A stretch of DNA of 64,000 nucleotides from Gaiellaceae bacterium (GTDB lineage Bacteria; Actinomycetota; Thermoleophilia; Gaiellales; Gaiellaceae): assembly GCA_026002995.1 (NCBI GenBank), contig BPGK01000001.1, forward strand, positions 1,054,001-1,118,000, given 5' to 3'. Below the pieces are notes generated by a model. It did no database searches. It was not told where the DNA came from and saw only the letters and a program-made list of their open reading frames with translations. Position numbers and translations under genes: made by a program. Of this stretch, positions 6,421-28,566 are shown piece after piece. Positions within the stretch are counted from its first letter, which is position 1; each line of letters opens with the position of its first letter.

Positions 6421-7074
6421 ATGTCGTCGGAAACGGCCGAGACGCGGGGCATCTCGCCCGACCGTGCGTGGTGGCTGCGCGTTCCGGCTGTCTTCCTCTC
6501 GCCGCGATCCGTCTTCTTCGCGCTTCGCGAGGACGACCCGGATGACATCGCGGCGCGGTCCGAGCCGGTGCTCTTCCTCGTTCTCCTCTCGGGGATGGCG
6601 GCCGTGCTCGCGACTCCGACCGCCGGCGGGCTGCTCGACAACCCGGAGTACGACGCCCTGCTCGTCGCTGTGTGGGCGTTCATCGCGGGCGGGATCTACG
6701 GCGCCGTCGGCTACTTCGTCCTCGGCCTGGCCCTCCACTTCGGGACGCGCCTGCTGGGCAGCCAGGGGTCGTTTCGGCGAGAGCGGCAGCTCCTCGCCTT
6801 CGCGTCCGCGCCGCTCGCCGTGTCGCTTCTCGTCCTCCTGCCCGCCAGGCTCGCGCTCTACGGCGGCGACACCTTCCGGAAGAGCGGGCCGGACGAGGGC
6901 GCGGGGGAGAGCGTGCTGCTCGCGCTCCAGCTCGGCTTCGTGGCGTGGTCGGCCGCGCTGCTCGTCCTGGGCGTGAAGGTCGTCCACGGCTGGGGGTGGC
7001 TGCGTGCGCTCGGCTCGCTCGCCGCCGGAGTGGCGCTGCTCGCTGCGTTCGCAGGGGTGTTCCTCACCTTGTAG
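6421..7074 (+). CDS. Yip1-domain integral membrane protein
   Basis: 217 residues with about five membrane spans (roughly 43-65, 75-105, 125-148, 165-187, 192-215). The N-terminal motif WWLRVPAVFLSPRSVFFALRE, with a short amphipathic stretch before the first span, is the pattern of bacterial Yip1-family proteins. Function in bacteria is unknown; no enzyme motif is visible. The start is fixed by a TACGCT box six bases upstream. Its TAG stop falls inside a palindromic repeat that follows. Confidence 0.75.
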   Translation: MSSETAETRGISPDRAWWLRVPAVFLSPRSVFFALREDDPDDIAARSEPVLFLVLLSGMAAVLATPTAGGLLDNPEYDALLVAVWAFIAGGIYGAVGYFVLGLALHFGTRLLGSQGSFRRERQLLAFASAPLAVSLLVLLPARLALYGGDTFRKSGPDEGAGESVLLALQLGFVAWSAALLVLGVKVVHGWGWLRALGSLAAGVALLAAFAGVFLTL

Positions 7075-7121
7075 GCGAGGCTTGTCTCGGTGAGGGCGAC
7101 CCGAGGGTCGCCCCTGCGACG
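7072..7121. repeat. Palindromic GC-rich intergenic repeat
   Basis: GTAGGCGAGGCTTGTCTCG followed by the hairpin GGGCGACCC-GAG-GGTCGCCCC. The same motifs recur at 7424-7449, 10751-10779 and 10906-10928. The first bases form the stop codon of the Yip1 gene. Confidence 0.7.
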
Positions 7122-7138
7122 TACGCAACAAGGGGTTC

Positions 7139-7352
7139 GCAACAGGGGTCAGGTCTGCCGTGTTGCAGCGAGGAGCGAGAGAAGGTACCGAGCATGCGCG
7201 CAACGAAAGGGACCTGACCCCGGTGTTGCGCGGAACGCCCGTCGTGTGCAACAGGGGTCAGGTCTGCCGTGTTGCAGCGAGGAGCGAGAGAAGGTACCGA
7301 GCATGCGCGCAACGAAAGGGACCTGACCCCGGTGTTGCGCGGAACGCCCGTC
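7139..7352. repeat. Two tandem copies of the GGTCAGG inverted-repeat element
   Basis: Two 105-base copies (7139-7243 and 7248-7352) are identical, with a period of 109. Each copy is an imperfect palindrome: outer arms GCAACAGGGGTCAGGTC and GACCTGACCCCGGTGTTGC, inner arms GTTGC and GCAAC. The orientation is opposite to that of the related copy at 10802-10898. The bases from 7353 to 7423 hold nothing recognisable. Confidence 0.9.
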
Positions 7353-7423
7353 TTGCGCCACGGCCGGCCCCGGAGCACCCGTCGGGTCTTCGCTCGACGC
7401 CCGCGCTCCCGCACTCGAGAGGA

Positions 7424-7449
7424 GGGAGACCCAGGGGTCGCCCCTACGA
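7424..7449. repeat. Palindromic GC-rich repeat at the end of panB
   Basis: GGGAGACCCAGGGGTCGCCC followed by CTACGA, a relative of the repeat at 7072-7121. The CTA at 7444-7446 is the complement of the panB TAG stop codon, so the repeat has set the end of that protein. Confidence 0.65.
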
Positions 7450-8325
7450 CGGGTACGGAGATGAGGCGGCGGACGCCGCAAGGCCCCGCTCGAAGAGGGC
7501 GAGCTCGTCGTCGGGCATCGCATAGGTGTGTTCCTCGGCCGGGAAGCGGCGCTCGCGGACGTCGCGGGTGTAGGCATCGAGCGCGTCGCGGATCGCGTCT
7601 CCGATCTCCGCGTAGCGCTTCACGAAGCGTGCTTGGTGTCCGTGCGAGAGGCCGAGCAGGTCGTGCCAGACGAGCACCTGTCCGTCGCAGCCCGGCCCGG
7701 CGCCGATCCCGATCGTCGGAATGGCGAGCCGCTCGCTGATCCGGGCTGCGACCGGCGCCGGGACGGCCTCGAGCACGAGCGAGAAGCAGCCGGCCGCCTC
7801 GAGCGCGCGCGCATCGGCGAGGAGTTGGAGCGCTCGCTCGGCGGTTCTGCCCTGCGCCTTGAAGCCGCCGAGCATCGTGGCCGACTGTGGGGTGAGCCCG
7901 ACGTGCCCCATGACCGGGATGCCCGCGCCGACGAGCGCGCGCACGCGGGAGAGCGTCGGGCCGGCACCCTCGAGCTTGACCGCGTCAGCGCCTGCTTCTT
8001 TCACGAACCGGATCGCGTTCCGCAGCGCGTCCTCGTCCGAGACCTGGTACGAGCCGAACGGCATGTCGGCGACGACGAGGGGGCGCGGCGCGGCGCGCGC
8101 CACCGCGCGGGTGAGCATGAGCATCTCCTCCATCGTCGCCGGGACGGTCGAGTCGTGCCCGAGCACGGTCATCGCCGCCGAGTCGCCGACGAGGAGGATG
8201 TCGATCCCTGCCTCCCCCGCGAGCCGTGCCCCGGGGGCGTCGTAGGCCGTCACCATCGCGATCGGGCGACCCTCCGCCGCCATCGCGGCAAGCTCGGGGA
8301 GCGTGAGCTTCGCGGACGGGCTCAC
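7444..8325 (-). CDS. panB: 3-methyl-2-oxobutanoate hydroxymethyltransferase
   Basis: 293 residues. PanB transfers a hydroxymethyl group from 5,10-methylene-THF to 2-oxoisovalerate to give ketopantoate, the first committed step to pantothenate and CoA. Recognisable are MVTAYDAPGARLAGEAGID, the metal ligand region LLVGDSAAMTVLGHDST, MPFGSYQ, VKLEGA, MGHVGLTPQS and IGIGAGPGCDGQVLVWHD. The GTG start overlaps the panC stop (GTGA), which fixes it. The C-terminal extension after the fold (FERGLAASAASSPYPS) runs into an intergenic repeat that supplies the stop. Confidence 0.97.
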   Translation of the reverse strand: MSPSAKLTLPELAAMAAEGRPIAMVTAYDAPGARLAGEAGIDILLVGDSAAMTVLGHDSTVPATMEEMLMLTRAVARAAPRPLVVADMPFGSYQVSDEDALRNAIRFVKEAGADAVKLEGAGPTLSRVRALVGAGIPVMGHVGLTPQSATMLGGFKAQGRTAERALQLLADARALEAAGCFSLVLEAVPAPVAARISERLAIPTIGIGAGPGCDGQVLVWHDLLGLSHGHQARFVKRYAEIGDAIRDALDAYTRDVRERRFPAEEHTYAMPDDELALFERGLAASAASSPYPS

Positions 8326-9095
8326 CGCTCGTCCAAGACGACGTTGTCGATGAGACGCGTTCCGCCGACGCGCACCGCTCCTGCGAGCACAGGTGGCTGG
8401 AAGTCCGCGACCTCCACGTAGTCGACTTCGACGCCTTCCGACTCGGCGAGGAGTCGGAGCGCGCTCTCCCGGTCGCGCGTCGCGAGCGCACGCGGCAGCG
8501 CGAGCGCCCGCTCGCGCTCCTCTGGCGAGAGGCGGGCGTTGCGCGAGGAGAGCGCGAGCCCGTCGGCGTCCCGCACGGTGGGGCAGACGCGGAGCTCGAC
8601 CTCGAGCGCGAGATCGGCGATGAGGCGCCGGATCACCTCCACCTGCTGCGCGTCCTTCTGCCCGAAGTACGCGCGGTCGGGGCGCACGATCTCGAAGAGC
8701 TTGAGGCAGACCGTCGCGACGCCGCGGAAGTGCCCGGGCCGGAACGCGCCCTCGAGGATGGAGCCGAGCTCGACGACGTCCACCCATGTCTGGAACCCCG
8801 GCGGGTACATCTCCTCCGCCGAGGGCGCGAAGACGAGGTCGACGCCTGCCTCCTCGGCGAGCCGGAGATCCCGGCGCTCGTCTCTCGGGTAGCTCGCGAG
8901 GTCGCCGCGCTCGTTGAACTGCGCGGGATTGACGAAGAGGCTCATCACCACCGTGTCGTTCTCCGCGCGCGCGGCCGAGAGCAGGGAGAGGTGGCCGTCG
9001 TGGAGCGCGCCCATCGTGGGAACGAGCCCGACGCCGCCCGAGCGCCGGGGCTCGAGGGCGCGGCGGGTTTCGGCGATCGTCCTTGCGACTTCCAT
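8322..9095 (-). CDS. panC: Pantothenate synthetase
   Basis: 257 residues, slightly shorter than the usual 270-300. It joins pantoate and beta-alanine through a pantoyl-adenylate. The nucleotidyl-transferase motifs are clear: VPTMGALHDGHLSLL (HxGH), FVNPAQFNERGDL, the FRPGHFRGVATVCLKLF block, YFGQKDAQQ and LALSSRNARL (KMSKS equivalent). It sits in a DUF2520-panC-panB minus-strand operon: 15 bases separate it from the upstream gene and four bases overlap panB. No panD is in the window. Confidence 0.97.
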   Translation of the reverse strand: MEVARTIAETRRALEPRRSGGVGLVPTMGALHDGHLSLLSAARAENDTVVMSLFVNPAQFNERGDLASYPRDERRDLRLAEEAGVDLVFAPSAEEMYPPGFQTWVDVVELGSILEGAFRPGHFRGVATVCLKLFEIVRPDRAYFGQKDAQQVEVIRRLIADLALEVELRVCPTVRDADGLALSSRNARLSPEERERALALPRALATRDRESALRLLAESEGVEVDYVEVADFQPPVLAGAVRVGGTRLIDNVVLDER

Positions 9096-9110
9096 CTCGA
9101 GCCCCGACGC

Positions 9111-9827
9111 TCAGGCGGGCGCTTCGGAGCGGAGCAGGGCCGCGCTCGGCAGCTCTCGGGCGGCGAGCGTTGCGGTCGCGGCGGCCAGGGCGACGTAGAG
9201 CTCCTCGAGCTCGGGCCTGCGCTCGCGGATCGCCTCCAGGTGACGCGCGACGGTCTCCCAGTCGCCGCGCGCGATCGGCCCCGTGAGCTCGAAGCCGTTC
9301 TCGAGGACGCCGCGCAGCAGCGGGTCGAGCGCTTCGGGAGGAGCCCCCGCGGCCTCGAGGAGCGACCCCGCGAGGGCGCGGAGCGTGACGAGGTAGTTGG
9401 CGGCGAAGGCCGCGCCTGCGTGGTAGACGGCTCGGTCGGCGTCGTCGAGGAGGAAAGGGCGGAGCCCGAGGGTCTGGGCGAGCTCGATGCCGACCGCGCG
9501 AGCCTCGGACGACTCTGCGGTCACGGCGCCCCAGGCGCCGTCCAGCTGCTCGGGCCCGCGCGCCTTCGAGAACGACTGGAGGGGGTGCAGGGAGAAGCGA
9601 CGCACGTGGGGGTCGAGCGCCGCGAGCGGGGTGGCACCGCTGACGTGGGCGATCCACGGCCCGGGGGCGATCTCGGCGGCGACCTCGGCGATGGCGCGGT
9701 CGGGAACGCAGAGCAGGACGAGCTGCGGATCGTCGGCGCCGAGCACGACGCCGCGCTCGGCGAGCCGCGCGCTCACGACCGACCCGACACGGCCGCTCGC
9801 GCCGATGATCTTGACCCTCTCGATCAT
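9111..9827 (-). CDS. Rossmann-like / DUF2520 oxidoreductase-like protein
   Basis: 238 residues from the ATG at 9827. The N-terminus has a nucleotide-binding loop VKIIGASGRVGSVVSARL, and the C-terminal half (FLLDDADRAVYHAGAAFAANYLVTL) matches the helical DUF2520 domain, an arrangement resembling ketopantoate reductase and prephenate-dehydrogenase-like proteins. Its position directly upstream of panC and panB makes a role in reducing ketopantoate plausible, since no panE or ilvC is nearby, but that is inference. A longer frame starting 14 codons upstream lacks a ribosome site and is not preferred. Confidence 0.8.
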   Translation of the reverse strand: MIERVKIIGASGRVGSVVSARLAERGVVLGADDPQLVLLCVPDRAIAEVAAEIAPGPWIAHVSGATPLAALDPHVRRFSLHPLQSFSKARGPEQLDGAWGAVTAESSEARAVGIELAQTLGLRPFLLDDADRAVYHAGAAFAANYLVTLRALAGSLLEAAGAPPEALDPLLRGVLENGFELTGPIARGDWETVARHLEAIRERRPELEELYVALAAATATLAARELPSAALLRSEAPA

Positions 9828-9884
9828 GTTCTCGGCTCCAGTTCCCCGTCGGGATACCGGGCTCGACACAGCGTAGCAGGGTGC

Positions 9885-10475
9885 TCAGCTCCCGGCGAGC
9901 CGCGCCTCGAGTCGCGTGCGAACCGCCGGCCACTCGTCGTCGAGGACGCTGTACCAGGCGCTGTCGCGGCTCTCGCCGTCCCGCACGAGCATGTGCTTGC
10001 GGTGAATGCCCTCGAAGGTCGTGCCGAGCGCCTCGAGCGCCCCCTTTGCACGCTCGTTCAGCGCGTCGGTCTTGAGCTCGACCCGCCTGCAGCCCCACGT
10101 CTCGAACGCGTGCCGGAGCTGCAGGAGCTTCGCCTCGACGTTCACCCCCGTTCCCCAGGCGGAAGGGTGGAGCCACGTCCACCCGATCTCGACGGAGCGG
10201 TGCTCGGGCCGCAGGGCGAGGAAGCGCGTCGACCCGACCACCCCCGCCTCGTGACTGATCGTTACAAGGGGGATCTCCACGCCGCGCTCGGCCGCAGCGA
10301 GCGCGTCCTCGAGCCAGCGGCGCCACTCCTCGCGCGTCCTCGGCTCGACGATCGGGAGCCAGCGCCAGGTGCGTGCGTCGCGCGACGCGTGCCAGAGGGG
10401 CTCCTCGTGCTCCGGGCCGAGCGGCTCGAGCCGCACGATGCGCCCTTCGAGCGTCGGGCAGGTCCACCGCTCCAC
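9885..10475 (-). CDS. GNAT acetyltransferase, RimJ/RimL-like
   Basis: 196 residues of the Acetyltransf_3 type: GRIVRLEPLGPEHEEPLWHA at the start, then VGSTRFLALRPEHRSVEIGW and an acetyl-CoA loop variant (WGTGVNVEAKLLQLRHAF), finishing with VELKTDALNERAKGALEALG, the usual RimJ/RimL C-terminal motif. Relatives acetylate ribosomal-protein N-termini or small amines; the substrate here cannot be told. The GTG start is set by a TACTGT box eight bases away. It diverges from the FmdB gene with only 24 bases between starts. Confidence 0.85.
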   Translation of the reverse strand: MERWTCPTLEGRIVRLEPLGPEHEEPLWHASRDARTWRWLPIVEPRTREEWRRWLEDALAAAERGVEIPLVTISHEAGVVGSTRFLALRPEHRSVEIGWTWLHPSAWGTGVNVEAKLLQLRHAFETWGCRRVELKTDALNERAKGALEALGTTFEGIHRKHMLVRDGESRDSAWYSVLDDEWPAVRTRLEARLAGS

Positions 10476-10483
10476 GGGAGCCG

Positions 10484-10493
10484 ACAGTACACT
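10484..10493. promoter_or_regulatory. Overlapping divergent -10 boxes
   Basis: In ACAGTACACT the minus-strand TACTGT (10484-10489) and plus-strand TACACT (10488-10493) share two bases, serving the GNAT gene and the FmdB gene. Polymerase could not occupy both at once. Confidence 0.55.
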
Positions 10494-10499
10494 GGGCTC

Positions 10500-10721
10500 A
10501 TGCCGATCTACGAGTACGCCTGTATGGAGTGCGAGACGCACTTCGACGAGCTCGTCCGCTCGCCCGAGCAGGCCGTTACGTGCCCCGAGTGCGGCGCGGC
10601 GAAGGTCCTCAAGCAGCTCTCGACCTTCGCCGTGCACGGCGCACAGGCGAAGCCGAGCTTCTCGGGCCCGACCGGAGCCGGGGGTGGCTGCTGCGGCGGC
10701 GCGTGCGGCTGCGGGCACTGA
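10500..10721 (+). CDS. FmdB-family zinc-ribbon protein
   Basis: 73 residues. It starts MPIYEYACMECETHFDELV and has the second cysteine pair in VTCPECGAAKVLKQLSTF, which together form the CxxC...CxxC zinc ribbon of the FmdB/putative-regulator family. The tail is rich in Gly and Cys (GGGCCGGACGCGH), common in this family. The role is not established; some relatives are linked to formamidase/amidase regulation. The ATG has a TACACT box six bases upstream and no ribosome site, so it is probably leaderless. Confidence 0.92.
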   Translation: MPIYEYACMECETHFDELVRSPEQAVTCPECGAAKVLKQLSTFAVHGAQAKPSFSGPTGAGGGCCGGACGCGH

Positions 10722-10750
10722 GCCTCTGAGGCAAACCGAACGAGGGCGCG

Positions 10751-10779
10751 GTGAGGGCGAGGCAAGCCTCGCCCCTACG
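10751..10779. repeat. Palindromic repeat GGGCGAGGC-AA-GCCTCGCCC
   Basis: A perfect 9-base-pair hairpin (10755-10763 with 10766-10774) followed by CTACG. An almost identical copy at 10906-10928 brackets the larger inverted-repeat element between them. Confidence 0.8.
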
Positions 10780-10801
10780 GGCGGACGGTCGGGGCGTACC
10801 G

Positions 10802-10898
10802 CGCAACACCGGGGTCAGGTCTCTTTCGTTGCGCGCGCGCGCGCGCGCTCGGCGCCTTCCCTCGCTGCAACACGGGAGACCTGACCCCGCTGTTGCGC
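10802..10898. repeat. GGTCAGG inverted-repeat element, copy B
   Basis: Outer arms CGCAACACCGGGGTCAGGTC and GACCTGACCCCGCTGTTGCG, with inner GTTGCG and TGCAAC. Its interior, read in reverse complement, resembles the tandem copies at 7139-7352. It contains 18 bases of alternating GC at 10831-10848. Confidence 0.88.
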
Positions 10899-10905
10899 AG
10901 GACGC

Positions 10906-10928
10906 GGGCGAGGCAAGCCTCCCCTACG
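10906..10928. repeat. Palindromic repeat, second flank of copy B
   Basis: GGGCGAGGCAAGCCTCCCCT then ACG, the copy of 10755-10779 with two bases missing. Its CTA at 10924-10926 is the complement of the stop codon of the next minus-strand gene. Confidence 0.75.
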
Positions 10929-11247
10929 AGGATGGCGTGCCGACGAGCGCAGCCGCTGCGACCATCGCCGAGAGCCCCGCGGCCGCGAATACGGCAACGA
11001 GGACGAGCGCCCGCGCGCGCGGCTCCGGCGGTCCGGCGAGCGTCTCGACCAATCGTCGGAGTCGTCCTGAGAAGTGGATCGCGAAGCCGAGCGCGACGGA
11101 CGAGACGAGCGCCGCGAAGAGGAGCCAGTTGAACGCCCGGTCGCCGACGCCGAACCACTCCTGGGCGAACGGGAGCACGCTCACGGCCCCGCCGAGGAAG
11201 GAGACGACGGCGACGCGCGGCGCATTCACGCGGCTAGCGTGCCGCAT
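10924..11247 (-). CDS. Small integral membrane protein, unknown
   Basis: 107 residues from the ATG at 11247 (or 101 from the GTG at 11229). About three hydrophobic segments are visible (VAVVSFLGGAVSVLPFA, NWLLFAALVSSVALGFAI, ALVLVAVFAAAGLSAMVAAAAL), with a basic loop FSGRLRRLVETL. No family is recognised. It diverges from the UDG gene with 28 bases between starts, and its last codons and stop run into a palindromic repeat. Confidence 0.6.
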   Translation of the reverse strand: MRHASRVNAPRVAVVSFLGGAVSVLPFAQEWFGVGDRAFNWLLFAALVSSVALGFAIHFSGRLRRLVETLAGPPEPRARALVLVAVFAAAGLSAMVAAAALVGTPSS

Positions 11248-11275
11248 CCGGGCGACGTCGTAGACTGGCGAGCGC

Positions 11276-11944
11276 ATGGCGGATGCAGTCGAGCGCGCGG
11301 CGGCTCTTCGCGAGTATGCGGAGGCGGTCGCGGGCTGCACGCGCTGCGCGCTCGCCCGGGGGCGTACGCAGGTCGTCTTCGGCGCCGGAAACCCGGACGC
11401 CGACCTCATGTTCGTGGGCGAGGCTCCCGGCTTCCACGAGGACCAGCAGGGCGTTCCGTTCGTCGGCCAGGCGGGGAAGCTCCTCGACCGGCTCCTCGCC
11501 GGCATCGGGCTCTCGCGAGCGGACGTCTACATCGCGAACACGCTGAAGTGTCGTCCTCCCGGGAACCGCGACCCCCTGCCGGAGGAGATCGCCGCCTGCG
11601 AGCCTCACCTCTTCCGCCAGATCGAGCTCATCGAGCCGAAGCTCGTGGCCACCCTCGGGAACTTCGCGACGAAGCTCCTCTCGGGGCGACCGACCGGGAT
11701 CACGCGCGTGCACGGCCAGGTGCAGGAGGTGACGCTCGGGACGAGGACGGTGCTCCTCTACCCCCTCTACCACCCGGCTGCGGCGCTCTACACGCCGTCG
11801 ATGCTCGCGGTGCTCGAGGAGGACTTCGCCCGCATCCCCGCGCTGCTCGAGCGAGCCCAGGCCTCGCCCGCCGCGGCGTCGGACACCGAGCAGGACGCGG
11901 CGATCGAGCCCGAGGCGGATCCGATCCAACTCGGGCTCTTCTGA
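11276..11944 (+). CDS. Family 4 uracil-DNA glycosylase (iron-sulfur type)
   Basis: 222 residues. It removes uracil from DNA at the start of base-excision repair. The family 4 marks are motif A GEAPGFHEDQQGVPFVGQAG, the second motif YHPAAAL, and four cysteines for a 4Fe-4S cluster (Cys21 and Cys24 in CTRC, Cys in LKCRPPGNRDP and in AACEPHL). The acidic tail is variable. It is the first gene of a run through tsaE, tsaB, rimI, tsaD and a subtilase; the next start is two bases after its stop. Confidence 0.95.
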   Translation: MADAVERAAALREYAEAVAGCTRCALARGRTQVVFGAGNPDADLMFVGEAPGFHEDQQGVPFVGQAGKLLDRLLAGIGLSRADVYIANTLKCRPPGNRDPLPEEIAACEPHLFRQIELIEPKLVATLGNFATKLLSGRPTGITRVHGQVQEVTLGTRTVLLYPLYHPAAALYTPSMLAVLEEDFARIPALLERAQASPAAASDTEQDAAIEPEADPIQLGLF

Positions 11945-24206: not shown

Positions 24207-24292
24207 GCAACGGGCGGGGTCAGGTCCTTTGTGTTGCGCGTGTCGGGTCGGTGGAGTGCGCGCAACACGGGGGACCTGACCCCGGTGTTGCG
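24207..24292. repeat. GGTCAGG inverted-repeat element, copy C
   Basis: Arms GCGGGGTCAGGTCC and GGGACCTGACCCCGGTGTTG, inner GTTGCGCG and CGCGCAAC. It lies between hppA and the large subtilase gene. Confidence 0.85.
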
Positions 24293-24374
24293 GTGTTCCG
24301 CGCTCGTCGCTCTCTCGCTTGCACGAGTGTCGCTCGCTCTTTTAGCATCCGCCGCGTCACTGGCAGGCCAGGAT

Positions 24375-27676: not shown

Positions 27677-27681
27677 CTCCG

Positions 27682-27776
27682 CGCAACGCGGGGTCAGGTC
27701 TCTTTCGTTGCGCTGGGGCAGTAGTCGGCTCTGAAGGGGTCGCCCCGTAACAGAAGGGACCTGACCCCGCGTTGCG
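27682..27776. repeat. GGTCAGG inverted-repeat element, copy D
   Basis: Arms CGCAACGCGGGGTCAGGTC and GGGACCTGACCCCGCGTTGCG. The middle differs from the other copies, but GGGTCGCCCC occurs in it, as in the small palindromic repeats. Confidence 0.85.
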
Positions 27777-27796
27777 GCCGGCGCTGTCGGCGGGGC

Positions 27797-28439: not shown

Positions 28440-28447
28440 ACGTCTGG

Positions 28448-28543
28448 CGCAACACGGGGTCAGGTCTCTCGTGTTGCGCTACGACCGAGCGCGAGCCCGA
28501 CCAGGCCGCCATGCAACAGCCGGGACCTGACCCCGGTGTTGCG
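28448..28543. repeat. GGTCAGG inverted-repeat element, copy E
   Basis: Arms CGCAACACGGGGTCAGGTC and GGGACCTGACCCCGGTGTTG, inner GTGTTGCG and TGCAACAG. It sits between the trkH stop (24 bases away) and the antitoxin frame (nine bases away). Confidence 0.85.
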
Positions 28544-28566
28544 CTGTTCCGGGAGAGCTCGACGCG

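Follow-up and report, generated by a model that had tools for sequence, protein, structure and literature searches.

A short palindromic repeat in the genome of a Gaiellaceae bacterium and in two congeneric genomes lies in exact register with amber (TAG) stop codons far more often than expected by chance, and orthologues that carry no repeat mostly end within two codons of the same position. We consider it somewhat probable that the repeats settle at GTAG sites already present in the host, which in a GC-rich genome are often stop codons.

Structure and Distribution of the Repeat

The window analysed here is a stretch of 64,000 nucleotides (positions 1,054,001-1,118,000) of a 2.62-Mb genome, G000, which is a single contig and 97% complete. 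The full repeat has the form (C)GTAGGGGCGA[GGCTTGCC/CCCTCGGG]TCGCCC, and its variants with GTAG foot and hairpin were written as GTAGGGGCGAGGCTTGCCTCGCCC or GTAGGGGCGACCCTCGGGTCGCCC. It is a GTAG-tagged REP with an unpaired GTAG foot, an 8-bp stem, and a 4-nt loop. Alignment, stem covariation, and folds all showed a short hairpin with GTAG left unpaired at its 5' foot, and the inner stem pairs carried compensatory changes in the alignment. As for other GTAG-tagged REPs, copies were dispersed and mostly extragenic, with 2 of 144 located inside a same-strand gene, and occurred as head-to-head pairs and clusters (inverted pairs and arrays in G000).

Across the 2.62 Mb of the genome, TAGGGGCGA occurred at 63 sites, compared with 22 for the reversed pattern, and a hairpin was present at about 57 of the 63. 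The bare 8-mer CCCCTACG was dropped as a marker of the repeat, having 4 matches where 1.4 were expected. A covariance model applied at a loose threshold yielded 140 matches in G000, 109 in G004, and 125 in G006. Inverted REP pairs lay in a 189-bp tandem array at 717483-718250 of G000 (L120), and a dense cluster was located between two genes at 1976659-1977860 (L131). Double-footed palindromes of the type GTAGGGG...CCCCTAC were detected at L160 4293 and L134 5162-5188; such a structure could give TAG to both genes of a convergent pair. Identical copies were abundant in G006 (L161-L180, L340-L354), suggesting recent spread.

Repeat Copies in the Window

The first-pass annotation of the window had placed the TAG stops of three genes in, or at the edge of, the repeat, and for two of them the sequence confirmed this. 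The panB gene (7444-8325, minus strand; 293 aa; Pfam PF02548, E 1e-113) ended in ...SSPYPS-TAG on the head of a GTAG-type REP (7424-7447, minus strand; cmsearch 35.2 bits), its last codons being TCG-TAG with the TAG at 7446-7444 within CGTAGGGGCGACCCCTGGGTCTCCC of the minus strand. Similarly, a small membrane-protein ORF identified by the codon model (10924-11277, minus strand; 107-117 aa depending on the start) ended in ...VGTPSS-TAG, with the last codons TCG-TAG and the TAG at 10926-10924 within CGTAGGGGAGGCTTGCCTCGCCC, in a shortened REP (10906-10927, minus strand; cmsearch 23.0 bits). The start of this protein, annotated earlier as 107 residues, may lie further upstream, as the codon-model call was 117 aa. 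A Pfam search with the 107-aa form gave no match, and no homologue was found in the congener loci fetched.

The third gene encodes a Yip1-domain membrane protein (6421-7074, plus strand; Pfam PF04893, E 7.6e-19) and ended in TTG-TAG (stop at 7072-7074) followed by GCGAGGCTTGTCTCG. Its stop does lie at the edge of a related copy (7071-7091, plus strand; GTAG then GCGAGGCTTGTCTCG), but this copy is degenerate, with the GGG missing, and was missed by the covariance model; the Yip1 case is therefore weaker than the other two. A further REP at 7094-7117 (minus strand; cmsearch 37.1 bits) had a foot decayed to GCAG and was not located at a stop. A consensus REP at 10755-10778 (minus strand; cmsearch 42.4 bits; hairpin of -19.2 kcal/mol, z -4.4), situated 146 nt past the point where the membrane ORF stops, supplied no stop. 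Across the copies, feet that did not serve as stops had decayed to GCAG, GTGG, and GTCG.

Register of Repeats and Stop Codons

The survey covered DNA around repeat copies, amounting to 381 kb in G000 (including the window), 163 kb in G004, and 153 kb in G006; 15 further G006 stretches were added later. Genes were called with a codon model trained on the surveyed stretches, and the distance from each repeat TAG to same-strand stops was measured. Among 144 REPs in the three congeneric genomes, 76 fell in the interval from -60 to +100 nt around a same-strand stop. The TAG of the repeat was that exact stop in 55 of these 76, against 0.5 expected under uniform placement, with a scoring that included the foot and so favoured intact TAG feet. 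These copies (17 in G000, 11 in G004, and 19 + 8 in G006) represent fewer independent events, because several cases are orthologous genes common to two or three species. Eight copies lay just past a stop (+0 to +25 nt). The overlap with stop codons proposed for the window thus extends well beyond it. In a control family, GGGGTCAGGT, 29 copies fell in this interval at distances spread from +3 to +93, and none of them was in register; the register of the REPs is therefore not an artefact of gene calling. In G006, GroES and another gene (L248, L249) had a TAA with the REP hairpin immediately behind it (TAAGGGCCGAGGC, TAAGGGCGAGGC), a pattern that would arise if mutation had changed the TAG foot solely into another stop.

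A stop codon within a repeat need not be of that repeat's making. According to the first-pass annotation, the repeat would bring its own TAG and be inserted randomly close to gene ends, with in-frame cases creating tolerated new stops and slightly altered C-termini. The position of the TAG in the repeat foot fits this proposal. However, random insertion near gene ends predicts 1-6% of copies at stops if 2-10 terminal codons are expendable (3% for 5 codons) and at most 16% for 30 codons, compared with the approximately 39% observed, and insertions in other frames or just past the stop were rare. On these grounds, we discarded the model of random, tolerated insertion close to gene ends.

Protein Ends in Repeat-Less Orthologues

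To compare protein ends, the C-termini of 45 repeat-bearing genes were set against those of congeners using concatenated C-terminal queries. Repeat-less orthologues of the REP genes had the same end codon in 53 of 111 cases and ended within two codons in 94 of 111, whereas the baseline for pairs of repeat-less orthologues was the same end codon in 54 of 130, indicating that general C-terminal shortening by the REP is absent. The Yip1 protein had an identical end codon in 7/7 congeners, all without the repeat and with TGA or TAG as the stop. For PanB, the stop was TAG in 7/7 congeners; the codon was identical in 3/7, and the others ended within seven codons. The end of ribosomal protein S4, ...VELYSK, was kept in all six G006 congeners examined, with a REP at the S4 stop in G000, G004, G006, and G008 and none in G002 and G010.

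Because repeat-less orthologues of Yip1, S4, and in part PanB share end codons, the proposal that the insertion makes a new stop is largely contradicted, and we regard it as very unlikely. It may nevertheless hold for a few genes in which the last residues are altered or the relatives lack TAG (L172, L180, L171). In nearly all relatives, L171, L173, L180, and L172 ended in TGA or TAA, and some copies may thus have brought in their own TAG. For the family as a whole, the comparison with relatives suggests that REPs mostly landed on pre-existing stops without shortening or altering the proteins.

Availability of GTAG Sites

We compared the placement of REPs with that of GTAG sites in general. 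Of the extragenic GTAG sites, 129/367 (35%) were in-frame stops, and the proportion of REPs at stops was almost the same (47/122, 39%; p 0.5). A G preceded the TAG in 42/45 REP stops (93%) compared with 113/193 repeat-less TAG stops (p 3e-6). Both results follow if REPs settle at existing GTAG sites and genic copies are purged. A conserved C at position -2 was considered as a further part of the target, but it was present in 31/45 REP stops and 73/129 repeat-less GTAG stops, which is no clear difference.

Stop Codon Identity in Relatives

The genome G007 contains few REPs (13 model matches), and its orthologues show which stops are used where the repeat is rare. Orthologues of G006 REP genes ended in TAG in 16/23 cases, or 15/22 by a stricter count, since one of the 16 (L341) has a degenerate REP itself. 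The corresponding values were 13/20 for G006 repeat-less TAG genes and 1/10 for G006 TGA genes (REP genes versus TGA genes, p 0.002), against a background TAG share of 35% in G007. In the more distant G004, REP-gene orthologues ended in TAG in 4/20 cases and those of repeat-less TAG controls in 8/19; stop identity is already scrambled there, and this comparison says little. In G000 and G010, TAG among REP-gene orthologues was near background. An excess of TAG over all relatives, first held to be strong, was found to rest mainly on G007. With G004 scrambled and G000 and G010 near background, the evidence for an ancestral TAG thus comes from one comparator and from PanB, with TAG in 7/7 congeners.

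The high TAG rate of G007 beside its few REPs would also be seen if ancestral REPs had made these stops, and repeats might have been lost in G007 while TAG stayed. However, a G preceded the TAG in just 9/16 of the G007 cases, as in ordinary TAG genes and not in 93%, and a REP remnant past the TAG was absent in all but one or two of them. Loss of ancestral REPs is the least probable of the explanations that we weighed.

Another possibility is that a REP puts its own GTAG exactly where a native stop of any kind had been, with a post-stop hairpin favoured for mRNA 3' end protection, termination, or translation tuning. The position of the stop is indeed kept although relatives often use TGA or TAA, REPs recur in several species at rpsD, a tRNA synthetase gene, and L27, and in congeners some of these stops are occupied or directly followed by other hairpin variants. 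Yet a hairpin 1-20 nt further downstream should serve equally well, and copies are rare there; the TAG rate in G007 equals that of repeat-less TAG genes; and an exact codon-for-codon swap of TGA would require a special mechanism. We therefore consider stop replacement rather unlikely.

When downstream flanks were compared across relatives, a few could be aligned (rpsD, groES, and an aldehyde-dehydrogenase-like gene) and none was decisive; no clean DNA-level empty site was found among them. Different hairpin variants were also seen in L183 (G007) and in the G001 orthologues of G006_L164 and G006_L166, where they occupy the stop of the same orthologous gene or follow it directly. The rpsD gene of G007 had a TAG followed by TAGGGGGCGGGCATGCCCGCCCC, with the variant TAGGGGCCGGGCATGCCCGGCCCCTACG in G001.

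Search for a Transposase

No Y1 transposase gene flanked by the GTAG REP was found: G000 contains three Y1_Tnp genes, none of them within 1.5 kb of a GTAG REP, and a search of REP-rich G006 (assembly 89% complete) gave no Y1_Tnp match. Inverted repeats of GGGGTCAGGT flanked two of the three G000 transposase genes (L001, L002). This sequence fits the GGGGWSAS motif given for the TIR repeats of TIRYT transposases in PMC3733652, and resembles those repeats in flanking two Y1 genes. Unlike the GTAG REP, it has neither a GTAG foot nor a stop-codon register.

A second family, GCAAC..GGGGTCAGGTC..GTTGC, occurred in the window as inverted pairs at 7139-7356 (a 109-bp unit in tandem), 10798-10896, 24207-24300, 27681-27783, and 28447-28551, with folds of z -4 to -6.5. 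Because the same GGGGTCAGGT flanks two Y1 genes, this second family looks like the TIR repeats of TIRYT elements.

Discussion

REPs on TAG stops are already known. In the available part of a 2013 paper (PMC3733652), GTAG REPs often supply TAG stops and lie near 3' ends, and the GTAG-tagged REP superfamily has the unpaired GTAG foot, stems of 5-13 bp, and a mostly extragenic distribution near 3' ends as singles, inverted pairs, or clusters, all of which resemble the repeat described here. The phyla with GTAG REPs named in that part are Proteobacteria, Cyanobacteria, Chloroflexi, and PVC, without Actinobacteria, whereas the present host is an actinobacterium. The register, the ancestral-stop test, and the match to GTAG availability are likewise absent from it, and no paper testing whether the stops predate the repeats was found in the literature searched. 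What is new is the family in this bacterial class, the controlled register, and the ancestral-stop test.

Very similar hairpins with a GTAG foot, for example, GTAGGAGCCAGCTTGCTGGCGAA, are found among the RAYT/TnpA-REP REPs of Pseudomonas and enterobacteria (PMC2817692, PMC8266576); such RAYT-associated REPs flank a cognate Y1 gene, an arrangement that our searches did not recover. The mobility of REPs is attributed to Y1 enzymes related to those of IS200/IS605 (PMC6006769, PMC8266576). IS200/IS605 elements insert beside a fixed tetranucleotide, guided at the hairpin foot (PMC6006769, PMC8266576). IS608 (PMC6006769), with a 5' tetranucleotide at its hairpin end and insertion beside a fixed host tetranucleotide, offers a model of how the REP might work; it differs in that the REP holds no transposase and that its target use is putative. 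By analogy with these elements, we tentatively suggest that the GTAG foot could be the host target tetranucleotide and not a sequence carried in. Because no Y1 gene flanked by the GTAG REP was found, a Y1 transposase as the agent is something we infer. GTAG as the landing site is likewise inferred.

As a GTAG-tagged REP, the repeat belongs with the small non-autonomous elements on which HUH/Y1 transposases (TnpA-REP, RAYT) act. If REPs do settle at pre-existing GTAG sites, each new copy would land at a host GTAG, and the host tetranucleotide would turn into the foot of the hairpin. Selection would remove copies within genes, and the survivors would occupy extragenic GTAG sites, about one-third of which, in a GC-rich genome, would be in-frame TAG stops after G. 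A gene would gain a hairpin directly past its stop, and the stop and the protein end would stay unaltered because the REP uses a GTAG already present.

The spread of REPs has been called a central yet unresolved issue (PMC3116915). If the explanation favoured here is true, TAG stops would be the commonest safe landing pads in GC-rich genomes, and the gathering of REPs at gene 3' ends would be explained without selection for function. Should the GTAG foot be the landing site, 3'-end clustering would need no role in mRNA stability or termination.
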